The position numbers were made by a program, and so were the translations under genes. This document shows, piece by piece, positions 3,162 to 52,906 of a stretch of 64,000 nucleotides of DNA. The stretch is from contig NZ_AUHN01000006.1 of the NCBI RefSeq assembly GCF_000423205.1, positions 1 to 64,000 of the forward strand, given 5' to 3'. This DNA is from Jonesia quinghaiensis DSM 15701 (GTDB taxonomy: Bacteria; Actinomycetota; Actinomycetes; Actinomycetales; Cellulomonadaceae). Every line of letters begins with the position of its first letter. Position 1 is the first letter of the stretch. The notes under the pieces were generated by a model. That model saw only the letters and a list, made by a program, of their open reading frames with translations, was not told the origin of the DNA and made no database searches.

Positions 3162-3164
3162 GAA

Positions 3165-3246
3165 CATGGCTGCGACTGGCGAGGGTGGATGACCACCGGG
3201 GAGTAGCCGCACTAACCTCACGTAGCGCCGTCCGCCTGGGTGCGAG
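3165..3246 (+). promoter_or_regulatory. ZTP (pfl) riboswitch upstream of purH
   Basis: The conserved pieces of the ZTP/ZMP aptamer occur in order: GGCTGCGACTGGCGAG, the hairpin GGTGGATGACCACC, GGGGAGTAGCC, then CCGTCCGCCTGGG. ZTP and ZMP build up when 10-formyl-THF is short, and the aptamer raises expression of folate and purine genes. It precedes purH, whose enzyme consumes ZMP (AICAR), which fits exactly. About 75 nt separate the aptamer from the purH start. I did not find an obvious terminator, so control may act on translation. A second copy precedes glyA. Confidence 0.93.
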
Positions 3247-3321
3247 GATCGAAATACCACCGCCATTGTGTCGTCTCACCGACACTGCCCGTGAATTCGA
3301 CAAGCTACGTTCGGAGATGCT

Positions 3322-6504: not shown

Positions 6505-6632
6505 ACGTTATTCCGGGGTCGGTGTAAGTCCGAACCGGCGGTTATAGCCCGCGACCCTGACACAGGTCACCGTGTCAGGTTGAATCAGTGAAATTCTGAT
6601 GCCGACAGTTAAAGTCTGGATGGGAGGAATAG
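6505..6632 (+). promoter_or_regulatory. FMN riboswitch (RFN element)
   Basis: The RFN consensus is nearly complete: ATTCCGGGGTCGGTG, AAGTCCGAACCGGCGGT, TAGCCCGCGACCC, TGAAATTCTGATGCCGACAG and AGTCTGGATGGGAG. It binds FMN and shuts down riboflavin genes when FMN is plentiful. A -10-like CATAAT at 6490-6495 would start transcription at its 5' edge. The downstream platform appears translational (see the hairpin at 6770-6802). The intergenic stretch 6401-6807 is thus mostly leader RNA. Confidence 0.97.
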
Positions 6633-6633
6633 C

Positions 6634-6659
6634 GTCGCTGCAGCGTACGCTGCAGCGAC
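6634..6659 (+). repeat. Perfect 26-bp palindrome after the FMN aptamer
   Basis: Positions 6634-6646 are the exact reverse complement of 6647-6659, with CTGCAG at the centre of each arm. In RNA the two arms would form a strong hairpin immediately after the aptamer. It is not followed by T residues, so it may be a spacer or switching helix rather than a terminator. As DNA it could also be a protein-binding site. Confidence 0.6.
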
Positions 6660-21468: not shown

Positions 21469-21583
21469 CGCCGTCTTCGTGCGCGTGTCGTGGGGCTCCT
21501 TCACCGTTCGCACACAGAAAACGTGTTCCACGTGAGCGGTGCCACTGTGTCGCGATCGGCCCCAATCCGCTAGACTCACAGAA

Positions 21584-21692
21584 GTGTCGCAACTGGCGTT
21601 TCCGCCCATGCTGTTCCAGCGTGGGTGAGTGGTGGGTCACCACCGGGGAGTGACACATATGCTTCGACCAAGGGTCGTCCGCCTGGGCCCGG
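21584..21692 (+). promoter_or_regulatory. ZTP (pfl) riboswitch upstream of glyA-folD
   Basis: The aptamer parts occur in order: GTGTCGCAACTGGCG, a short extra hairpin, GTGGTGGGTCACCACC, GGGGAGTG and GTCCGCCTGGGC. A -10-like TAGACT at 21570-21575 puts the transcript start at its 5' edge. The regulated genes make and interconvert one-carbon folates, the classic targets of this riboswitch. About 105 nt remain to the glyA start; no plain terminator was found there. It is longer than the purH copy because of the added hairpin between the conserved blocks. Confidence 0.92.
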
Positions 21693-21799
21693 TCACCACA
21701 CGGCGTGTGCGAGACCGGAAGCCTGTCTGTCTCCTGTGATCTCACGCGCCTCGTCAGTACTCGTAGCGTCGCGGCCCAGCCGCGAGGAGAAGGAGAATC

Positions 21800-49937: not shown

Positions 49938-50066
49938 GGTGTCTCCTTGTAGGACTGGCGTGTCGCAGATGGGCGGGTGCGGGGATCCGCGGACTGTGGC
50001 ATGCACAACGTCGTGTTGCTTGTGCATATTCCCAGTGTGTCACTTGCACCTGACACAATGGGGTCG

Positions 50067-52076
50067 ATGTCCAGTGATCCTCAAGAAATTCTCGATGCCC
50101 TCGACCCGGACCAGCGCGAGGTCGCCATGGCCTTAACTGGGCCGGTGTGTGTGCTGGCTGGCGCTGGGACGGGGAAAACTCGCGCCATCACTCACCGCAT
50201 AGCGTACGGGGTACGCACTGGCATGTATGTGCCTACTTCTGTGCTCGCTGTGACATTTACTGCGCGCGCGGCGGGGGAGATGCGTGTCCGGTTGCGGGAC
50301 CTTGGGGTTCAGGGGGTGCAGGCCCGGACGTTCCACGCTGCAGCGTTGAAGCAGCTGGGCTATTTTTGGCCGAAGGTTGTGGGAGGGCCGCCTCCGCAGA
50401 TTGTCGAGTACAAAGCTCGAATTGTTGCTCAGGCAGCTACTCGTTTGGGGCTAGAGGCGGACCGTGTGACCGTGCGAGACCTTGCCTCGGAGGTGGAGTG
50501 GAGCAAGGTATCAATGGTCAGCGCGGCTGATTATGAAAAGGCTGCGACAGCTATTGGACGCCCAGCCCCAGCGGGTTTTGACCACAAAACAATCGCACGG
50601 CTGCTTGATAGTTATGAGGAAGTCAAAGAGCTTGGTGGGGTCATTGACTTTGAAGATGTTCTTCTCTTGTTGGGAGGTATTCTTCAGGACCGCACCGATG
50701 TTGCCCGTCAGGTGCGCGACCAGTATCGCCGGTTTGTGGTGGATGAGTATCAGGACGTGTCACCGTTACAGCAGTTTGTCCTTGACCAGTGGCTGGGTGA
50801 TCGACGTGAGTTATGTGTTGTTGGTGATCCAAGCCAGACGATTTACTCGTTCACCGGGGCAACCCCGCATCATCTTTTGAGTTTTGGGCAGCGGTACCGG
50901 GATGCCACAACGATTCGGCTGATCCGCGATTATCGGTCCACTCCGCAGATCGTCACGATGGCGAATCGGTTGTTGACCACCGCATCGGACAAACACCGTT
51001 TCCCTGTGCTTGATTTGCAGTCTCAGCGTGAGTCTGGTGCGGAAGTGTCTTGTGTGGTTTTCGCTGACGATGCGCGTGAAGCTGCCGGAATATCTGAACG
51101 GATCGCACGGGTCATTGCTCAGGGCGTAGCACCGCGCGATATCGCAGTGCTATATCGCACCAACTCTCAGTCTCAGGCGTTTGAGGAGGCTTTGGCCGCT
51201 GTTGGTGTGAGTTTCCAGGTGCGCGGTGGGGAACGGTTCTTCTCGCGTAAAGATGTGAGATCAGCACTTCTTATGTTGAAAGGTGCTGCTCGCTCAGCAC
51301 CTGATGATGTCTCACCAGCACAGGCAATTGAGGATGTTTTGCGCACAGCAGGGTGGTCCTCTACTGCGCCGCAGGCCCGTGGTGCAGCACGTGAACGTTG
51401 GGAAGCGTTGAATGCTGTGTGGGAGTTGACGCAAAGCTTGGGTGAGCAAGGCTTGGGATTGACGGAAATAGTTGGTGAACTTGATGAGCGTGCTCGCCAT
51501 CAACATGCACCAACTGTTGACTCAGTGACGTTAGCGTCACTGCACGCCGCGAAGGGCTTGGAGTGGTCGCATGTGTACTTGGCCGGGTTGAGCGAAGGGC
51601 TTATGCCAATTTCCTTGGCTCAGACGCCAGAGGCGGTCGCTGAAGAACGGCGGTTGCTGTATGTCGGGATCACCCGAGCTCAACATCAGTTGACGTTGTC
51701 GTATTCGCAGTCGCGTTCTGGAACTGGGCGAACCGCACGGCAAGTGAGTCGTTTTCTCGCCCCATTGTGGACAGGCCCACGCGATACTTCTCAGAAGCCT
51801 CAGCGGGGTGTGAGTGATCAGCGCGTCCCGCGTCCTCGTCGTGGAGAGATGCATGGAGAACTATTTGTGGAGTTACGGTCGTGGCGGAGCCAGTGGGCTG
51901 CGCAACACGATGTCGAAGACCACATGGTTGTCCCGACTACGGTGTTGCGCGCTTTAGCCACTCAACGCCCCGCAACGTGGGAGGCTTTTGTATCGACTCG
52001 TGGGGTCGGGCAAGAGCGTGCTGTGGCGTGGGGGGAGGAGGCTTTCGACATCATCCGAAAGTATGGACCTTCGTGA
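50067..52076 (+). CDS. uvrD2: UvrD2-type DNA helicase with HRDC domain
   Basis: A 669-residue SF1A helicase. Walker A GAGTGKT (~31-38), TFTARAAGEM, VVDEYQDVSPLQ, GDPSQTIYSFTGA, LHAAKGLEW and VGITRAQHQLT are intact. The C-terminal ~70 residues are an HRDC domain (VLRALATQRPATWEAFVSTRGVG). The tetracysteine motif that joins motor and HRDC in mycobacterial UvrD2 is missing: the linker has no Cys. ATG 50067 is chosen (GGGG nearby); ATG 50058 is possible. whiB7 lies directly downstream in the same direction, but with its own promoter. Confidence 0.9.
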   Translation: MSSDPQEILDALDPDQREVAMALTGPVCVLAGAGTGKTRAITHRIAYGVRTGMYVPTSVLAVTFTARAAGEMRVRLRDLGVQGVQARTFHAAALKQLGYFWPKVVGGPPPQIVEYKARIVAQAATRLGLEADRVTVRDLASEVEWSKVSMVSAADYEKAATAIGRPAPAGFDHKTIARLLDSYEEVKELGGVIDFEDVLLLLGGILQDRTDVARQVRDQYRRFVVDEYQDVSPLQQFVLDQWLGDRRELCVVGDPSQTIYSFTGATPHHLLSFGQRYRDATTIRLIRDYRSTPQIVTMANRLLTTASDKHRFPVLDLQSQRESGAEVSCVVFADDAREAAGISERIARVIAQGVAPRDIAVLYRTNSQSQAFEEALAAVGVSFQVRGGERFFSRKDVRSALLMLKGAARSAPDDVSPAQAIEDVLRTAGWSSTAPQARGAARERWEALNAVWELTQSLGEQGLGLTEIVGELDERARHQHAPTVDSVTLASLHAAKGLEWSHVYLAGLSEGLMPISLAQTPEAVAEERRLLYVGITRAQHQLTLSYSQSRSGTGRTARQVSRFLAPLWTGPRDTSQKPQRGVSDQRVPRPRRGEMHGELFVELRSWRSQWAAQHDVEDHMVVPTTVLRALATQRPATWEAFVSTRGVGQERAVAWGEEAFDIIRKYGPS

Positions 52077-52081
52077 TGGTG

Positions 52082-52129
52082 AAAAAAGTTCGTAAAAAAA
52101 GTTGCCTTGCTCACGAGCGGGCACATAAT
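52082..52129 (+). promoter_or_regulatory. WhiB7-type autoregulated promoter
   Basis: TTGCCT (52102-52107) and CATAAT (52124-52129) are 16 nt apart. An A/T-rich block (52082-52100, with runs of A) touches the -35. WhiB7 works with the primary sigma factor and uses its AT-hook to bind such a block just upstream of the -35, so positive autoregulation is expected. It lies 5 nt after uvrD2. Confidence 0.78.
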
Positions 52130-52199
52130 GTTGATTCTGTCAGTGAAAACGCGGCGTAGCGCGAAAGCGTGAGCCCTCAGCGATGGGAGGTGGAACGAA

Positions 52200-52343
52200 G
52201 TGAAAAACATGAATCTAGCGGCTATTGGATTGCCGCTCAACGATCAACGCTTCCGTTCCGGCTTCGATATGACCCATCGCTGGGAGCGTCCACAGGGTTT
52301 AACTTCTGTGGCTCCGCGGACTGACATCGGCTTACACAGGTAG
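52200..52343 (+). CDS. 47-codon leader ORF of whiB7
   Basis: A short ORF with a good ribosome binding site (GGGAGG at 52185-52190, 9 nt before GTG 52200) and stop TAG at 52341-52343. The peptide begins MKNMNLAAIGLPLNDQRF and contains HRWERPQG and the ending TDIGLHR. whiB7 leaders in other actinobacteria contain such ORFs. The last codons, 52312-52328, form one arm of the antiterminator, so ribosome position on this ORF can set the fate of the transcript. Confidence 0.82.
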   Translation: MKNMNLAAIGLPLNDQRFRSGFDMTHRWERPQGLTSVAPRTDIGLHR

Positions 52344-52405
52344 CGACAGGGATTGTCGTTTCACTGAGCTAAACCTGCTTTCGAGCAGATGTCATCACCG
52401 CGGAG
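52312..52405 (+). promoter_or_regulatory. Antiterminator pairing in the whiB7 leader
   Basis: 52312-52319 (CTCCGCGG) pairs with 52398-52405 (CCGCGGAG), and 52322-52328 (TGACATC) with 52388-52394 (GATGTCA): 15 bp around a small internal loop. The left arm lies in the leader ORF; the right arm is the left half of the terminator. Two little hairpins (52344-52358 and about 52375-52388) fill the gap between the arms. Confidence 0.75.
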
Positions 52406-52434
52406 GCCCACAGGGATCCGCGGTTTCGTGTTTT
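52397..52434 (+). terminator. Attenuator (intrinsic terminator) upstream of whiB7
   Basis: An 8-bp stem ACCGCGGA (52397-52404) / TCCGCGGT (52417-52424) with a 12-nt loop is followed by TTCGTGTTTT. It lies 92 nt before whiB7 and is mutually exclusive with the antiterminator. Confidence 0.78.
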
Positions 52435-52525
52435 GTGCACACTTTCTTGGTTGTCAGGTCAAGGCAACCAGACTGGCGCGTATCCCTCAACATTCAGATC
52501 ATTTGGGATATAACTGGAGGAAATT

Positions 52526-52906
52526 GTGCGATTAGCGGCGATGCTCGATGTCATGGAGACTGGAGCAACTGCCATCGTTTCACTTGGTCAGCACACTACT
52601 GCGCGTGTATCTACGCCGGGAGCTGCACCACTGACACACGATGAGAAAGGGGTCTTCAACGACCTCGTCCAAGCTCTCGTTCCTTGCCGTAACGACGACC
52701 CAGAACTGTGGTTCGCTGAGCAAGCAGGCGCCATTGAGCAGGCCAAAGCACTGTGCCAGCAGTGTCCTTTGGTTGCAGCTTGCCTACAAGGAGCGCTCGA
52801 CCGTGAAGAACCATGGGGAGTATGGGGCGGCGAAGTTTTTGTCGACGGGGCCATTGTCGCCCGCAAGCGTGGCCGCGGGCGGCCACGTAAATCAGAGGCT
52901 GCGTGA
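52526..52906 (+). CDS. whiB7: Transcriptional regulator WhiB7
   Basis: A 126-residue [4Fe-4S] WhiB protein that switches on intrinsic resistance to ribosome-targeting drugs. Cluster cysteines are C54, C77, C80 and C86 (CQQC-x5-C). The G(V/I)WGG turn is at 98-102 and the C-terminal AT-hook RGRPR at 117-121, specific for WhiB7. GTG 52526 follows GGAGG by 5 nt. It is controlled by a long leader (52130-52525) with a leader ORF and an attenuator. Likely targets such as efflux pumps (for example the MFS gene at 16.6 kb) are possible but not shown. Confidence 0.95.
   Translation: MRLAAMLDVMETGATAIVSLGQHTTARVSTPGAAPLTHDEKGVFNDLVQALVPCRNDDPELWFAEQAGAIEQAKALCQQCPLVAACLQGALDREEPWGVWGGEVFVDGAIVARKRGRGRPRKSEAA

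Follow-up and report, generated by a model that had tools for sequence, protein, structure and literature searches.

The whiB7 leader region of Jonesia quinghaiensis

The whiB7 gene of Jonesia quinghaiensis DSM 15701 lies on the forward strand of the window (the whole 64,000-nt stretch of DNA that was analysed), where it is preceded by a UvrD/HRDC helicase gene and by a leader region containing a probable promoter, an upstream open reading frame (uORF) and a predicted intrinsic terminator (Table 1). The predicted WhiB protein has no match in NCBIfam, but its EPWGVWGG turn, which is common to all 70 loci collected from relatives, and its C-terminal GRGRPRK AT-hook identify the gene as whiB7, in agreement with the preliminary description of this DNA, which had called it whiB7. 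No second copy of the leader was found in the same genome, so that it is single-copy, and the leader has no curated Rfam family match at gathering score and no plausible match at E<=1. Elsewhere in the window, two ZMP/ZTP riboswitches score above the gathering threshold (3162-3248 and 21579-21695), and an FMN riboswitch is found at 6505-6635 (101 bits).

A promoter scan identifies TTGCCT-16-CATAAT as a sigma-70-like match ahead of the leader. Together with its AT-rich element this promoter resembles WhiB7-activated promoters in sequence, and its WhiB7 dependence is putative. The AT-rich plus GTTG element is also visible in the relatives L002, L005, L014 and L015. A strict WhiB7-promoter pattern matched only once elsewhere in the genome, equal to the reversed-pattern control, and missed the promoter of the window itself; it was set aside as uninformative. 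Downstream, the GGAGGTGG context of the Shine-Dalgarno sequence is shared with L002, L005 and L006, and the uORFs of the window (52200-52214), L002 and L006 all begin with MKNMN. An MxxM start is frequent more generally, with 12 of 40 uORFs carrying Met at codon 4 (relatives including L002, L006, L031, L034, L039 and L043), which may represent a second start or simply an A-rich, unstructured initiation region.

The two arms of the antiterminator form 8 + 7 = 15 Watson-Crick pairs with an AC/UCA internal loop between them. Bases 52398-52404 are common to this helix and to the terminator, and the two folds are thus mutually exclusive. The anatomy given in the preliminary description, namely a 47-codon ORF whose end pairs over 15 bp with an arm that is also the left half of a terminator at 52397-52424, is confirmed, with every coordinate correct when checked against the sequence. 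Two elements were absent from it: an apical extension that carries the antiterminator across the stop codon (~52330-52345 with 52369-52386), and the local hairpin directly upstream of the left arm. This hairpin contains CCACAGGG, which occurs again as CCCACAGGG in the terminator loop (52407-52415), and CUGUGG at 52306-52311 could also pair with 52408-52413 to produce a longer antiterminator core. A generic terminator scan, which considers loops of 3-8 nt only, misses the hairpin at 52397-52424.

Table 1. Features of the whiB7 leader region (positions are those of the window).
Feature	Position	Strand	Details
UvrD/HRDC helicase gene	49977-52076		Upstream neighbour of the leader region
Probable promoter of the whiB7 leader	52094-52131	+	AT-rich AAAAAAAGTTG directly overlapping the -35
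Promoter -35	52102-52107		TTGCCT, from sequence
Promoter -10	52124-52129		CATAAT; alternative TAATGT at 52126-52131
Shine-Dalgarno of leader ORF	52186-52190	+	GGAGG, 9 nt before GTG
Leader ORF (uORF)	52200-52343	+	47 codons; GTG start at 52200, TAG stop at 52341-52343
Local hairpin	52290-52311	+	CCACAG...CUGUGG, directly 5' of left arm; seen in MFE folds
Antiterminator left arm	52312-52328	+	CUCCGCGG-AC-UGACAUC; core CUCCGCGG 52312-52319, outer UGACAUC 52322-52328
Antiterminator right arm	52388-52405	+	GAUGUCA-UCA-CCGCGGAG; core CCGCGGAG 52398-52405, also the terminator 5' arm
Predicted intrinsic terminator hairpin	52397-52424	+	ACCGCGGAGGCCCACAGGGAUCCGCGGU; 8 bp, ACCGCGGA...UCCGCGGU
Terminator tail	52425-52436	+	UUCGUGUUUUGU, U-rich but interrupted
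whiB7, regulated gene	52526-52906	+	126 aa; Pfam WhiB PF02467, E 3.7e-16

Mutually exclusive folds and their response to a ribosome mask

The duplex between the right arm and the upstream leader is considerably stronger than expected by chance (-27.0 kcal/mol versus -16.5 +/- 2.6 kcal/mol for dinucleotide shuffles, of which 1 in 2000 was as good). The minimum free energy fold of 52195-52440 includes the 15-bp helix and reaches -92.5 kcal/mol (z -3.3, with none of 200 shuffles as stable), and the fold of 52290-52435 is likewise more stable than shuffles (z -3.75). Folded alone, 52344-52435 adopts the terminator, with a total energy that is not unusual (z -1.06).

In an equilibrium model, 52195-52440 was folded with a 30-nt ribosome mask placed at successive codons of the uORF. 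With no ribosome, the antiterminator core has a probability of 0.90 and the terminator of 0.08. The antiterminator remains at 0.90-0.98 when the P-site is at codons 2, 5, 15, 30 and 33, while the terminator takes over, at 0.98-1.00, for codons 35 to 47. The switch predicted in the preliminary description for an ORF that is either covered or free is therefore obtained on folding this segment, with the antiterminator usually dominant when the P-site is at or before codon 33 and the terminator dominant from codon 35 to the stop. Three positions depart from this pattern: the antiterminator falls to 0.78 at codon 10, to 0.10 at codon 20, where the terminator is favoured (0.90), and to 0.54 at codon 25, where the outcome is mixed via alternative 5' pairing. 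A likely cause is competition, within this equilibrium model, from 5' sequence that has been freed. As the transcript lengthens, the core helix is already at 0.99 once the RNA ends at 52405, where the terminator 3' arm is not yet transcribed.

When the stop codon occupies its A site, the ribosome masks ~52323-52352, that is, the last 6 nt of the left arm together with the apical part, whereas the core at 52312-52319 is masked only by ribosomes a few codons before the stop (P-site at ~codons 35-45). The proposal that a ribosome finishing the ORF covers the left arm thus holds for only 6 nt of the arm at the stop codon itself; since the masked fold still gives 0.98 terminator at this position, the conclusion that a finished ORF leads to the terminator stands.

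Conserved layout and covariation in relatives

All 99 genomes searched contained a WhiB match; the 70 whiB7-type loci were collected, and 80 named loci were taken from GTDB genomes. In most relatives the uORF occupies the same place and the terminator hairpin is near-identical, close to GGCCGCGGAGUCC...GGACCCGCGGCC and followed by a U-rich tail, and in most leaders of the family a left arm such as GACUCCGC lies within the uORF end. The commonest distances from the beginning of the left-arm core to the uORF stop are 25 and 28 nt, and the window has 29 nt; these distances come from a search that ignores the stop, because the anchored hinge test described below gave a bonus to cores near the stop. 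The spacer between stop and terminator is 50-63 nt in the window, J. denitrificans and two neighbours, versus about 10-30 nt elsewhere. No clear left-arm core was seen at the expected place in L010, L020, L026, L039, L042 and L057. Six members of the family or order (L029, L032, L058, L060, L061 and L065) have no CCGCGG-type terminator before whiB7 and could rely on another terminator or have none.

The uORF appears to be a translated frame without evident selection on its peptide. In 11 pairs of leaders with at least 86% identity, 9 indels fall inside the uORF versus 41 outside it (wider alignments are gappy), which, together with the Shine-Dalgarno sequence and the stop spacing, supports translation of the frame. 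Nine close pairs show no codon-position bias in their substitutions (56/56/66), and the peptide diverges fast both within and across genera; its sequence is thus not conserved, which makes an arrest peptide unlikely. This bears directly on drug-programmed nascent-peptide arrest of the erm/cat type, in which a specific motif stalls the ribosome and only that position antiterminates. Macrolide-type arrest leaders do exist elsewhere, and the recurring MKNMN start would be compatible with such a motif; however, neither the codon-position test nor the comparison of peptides across genera finds the conserved leader peptide of this class, in the masked folds, stalling at most positions ahead of codon 34 is enough to switch the structure, and known whiB7 leaders answer many drug classes as well as amino-acid starvation (PMC11550727). 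We therefore regard arrest of this type as very unlikely.

A four-segment attenuator of the trp type, in which a 1:2 protector hairpin would make untranslated leaders terminate and only stalls in segment 1 induce, appears more improbable still. A CGCGGAGG-like stretch does occur ~35 nt upstream of the left arm in L015, L017, L034 and L047, but across 56 leaders the left arm pairs with upstream sequence only as well as it does in shuffles (mean z 0.01; window z -0.5), which argues against any general protector hairpin sequestering the left arm, and the fold without a ribosome is the antiterminator rather than the terminator.

Pairing of the antiterminator arms is supported by comparison between leaders. 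When the 20 nt preceding the terminator (the hinge partner) were exchanged between leaders, the antiterminator averaged -28.4 for cognate versus -23.3 for swapped partners (permutation z -14, 0/20000), and the hinge likewise exceeds shuffles (mean z -2.3). A second test concerned R[7], a base paired only in the antiterminator, with the left arm anchored on the uORF stop and on the four bases opposite near-invariant positions of the right arm; the anchor ignores the tested base and therefore does not select for pairing. A left-arm partner for R[7] is present in 72 of 84 leaders versus 43.6 +/- 3.2 after permutation (0/5000), and C-G, G-C, U-A and G-U pairs are all used: C-G in the family of the window, G-C and G-U in Pseudonocardia and Streptosporangiaceae, and U-A in others. 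Compensation can extend to all three strands, as in L005, where left arm, right arm and terminator 3' arm read CUUUGC/GCGAAG/CUCGC, and in L040, L041 and L052 (CUCCAC/GUGGAG/CCAC), which count as one event because they belong to one genus. As the sequences are related, the independent covariation events are few. A free-register duplex test of single leaders was weak (15 of 63 at p<=0.05) and was replaced by these anchored tests. Covariation, on which the preliminary description had staked its reading beforehand, is thus found, both for the hinge and for R[7].

The least probable reading treats the structures as incidental, or the hairpin as a constitutive terminator or pause site, with regulation residing solely at the WhiB7-responsive promoter: a WhiB7-type element does precede the leader, but antiterminator-specific covariation, the preference for cognate partners and the conserved stop-to-arm spacing all speak against it.

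Proposed mechanism and relation to known attenuators

Taken together, we suggest that the whiB7 leader is a ribosome-mediated transcription attenuator, with a probability of about 0.9. RNA polymerase would start at about 52136 and a ribosome would translate the 47-codon leader. A ribosome keeping pace into the last ~13 codons or to the stop would mask the left arm and the apical extension, leaving the right arm to pair downstream into the hairpin at 52397-52424, and transcription would end before whiB7. If the ribosome were instead held before about codon 34, by a drug or by amino-acid shortage, or never loaded, the arms would pair as soon as 52405 was transcribed, ahead of the terminator 3' arm, and whiB7 would be read. 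Such a sensor would respond to how far the ribosome has advanced, not to any particular nascent peptide. From this we infer that the RNA terminates and antiterminates in vivo, that drugs induce the gene and that WhiB7 activates its own expression, and antibiotic induction of Jonesia whiB7 would follow by analogy with its known counterparts. More tentatively, the free peptide, the lack of a protector hairpin and the constrained stop-to-core distance (25 or 28 nt in most cases, with similar values across several actinobacterial orders) may point to a position-blind sensor of ribosome progress, in which it is the terminating ribosome that normally keeps whiB7 off; of this we are less than evenly persuaded.

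Several classes of attenuator share parts of this design. The ilvB1/trp-type attenuators (PMC13236596) likewise combine a leader ORF with exclusive terminator and antiterminator folds and a ribosome at the stop that masks the antiterminator, but the Jonesia leader, unlike these, has neither a noted run of regulatory codons nor a detectable 1:2 protector hairpin. The leaders of ARE-ABCF genes (are5sc, tiaA; PMC12421871) also couple a uORF to a premature terminator that is opened by ribosome-targeting drugs; their uORFs, however, span 3-9 codons and rely on start-codon stalling, whereas that of Jonesia is 47 codons long and holds the left arm in its last third.

The closest counterparts are the whiB7/wblC leaders themselves. 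That a leader ORF controls whiB7 in other actinobacteria, as the preliminary description had noted, is borne out by the literature: full translation of the uORF leads to the terminator and disturbed translation to the antiterminator (PMC11550727, PMC9618640, PMC13393426), with early evidence from Dinan 2014 (PMC4128351) and an attenuator described for Streptomyces coelicolor and mycobacteria by Lee, Lee & Roe 2022 (doi 10.1111/mmi.14834), as cited in PMC11550727, PMC9618640 and PMC13393426. The Jonesia leader has the corresponding parts: a whiB7 gene, a uORF with a Shine-Dalgarno sequence, a predicted Rho-independent terminator and an exclusive antiterminator arm within the uORF. As described in the citing papers, the Streptomyces and mycobacterial systems share with Jonesia the same gene, a uORF bearing a Shine-Dalgarno sequence and a terminator between uORF and gene, and their antitermination upon disrupted uORF translation, as a broad response to translation stress, is predicted for the Jonesia leader as well; the antiterminators are compared here by description. 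The known cases are backed by experiment, whereas the Jonesia leader is known from sequence alone, and it differs from most relatives of its family in a stop-to-terminator spacer of 54 nt, versus about 19 nt, and a long antiterminator apex.

With this mechanism on record for whiB7/wblC, the Jonesia leader adds to a known kind. Covariation, cognate pairing and stop-to-arm spacing provide comparative support for a mechanism studied mostly in Streptomyces and mycobacteria and extend it to Jonesia and its relatives, including Cellulomonas-related genera, and alignments of whiB7 leaders could seed an Rfam family of their own. A leader that senses general ribosome progress would account for the response of whiB7 to many unrelated translation inhibitors.
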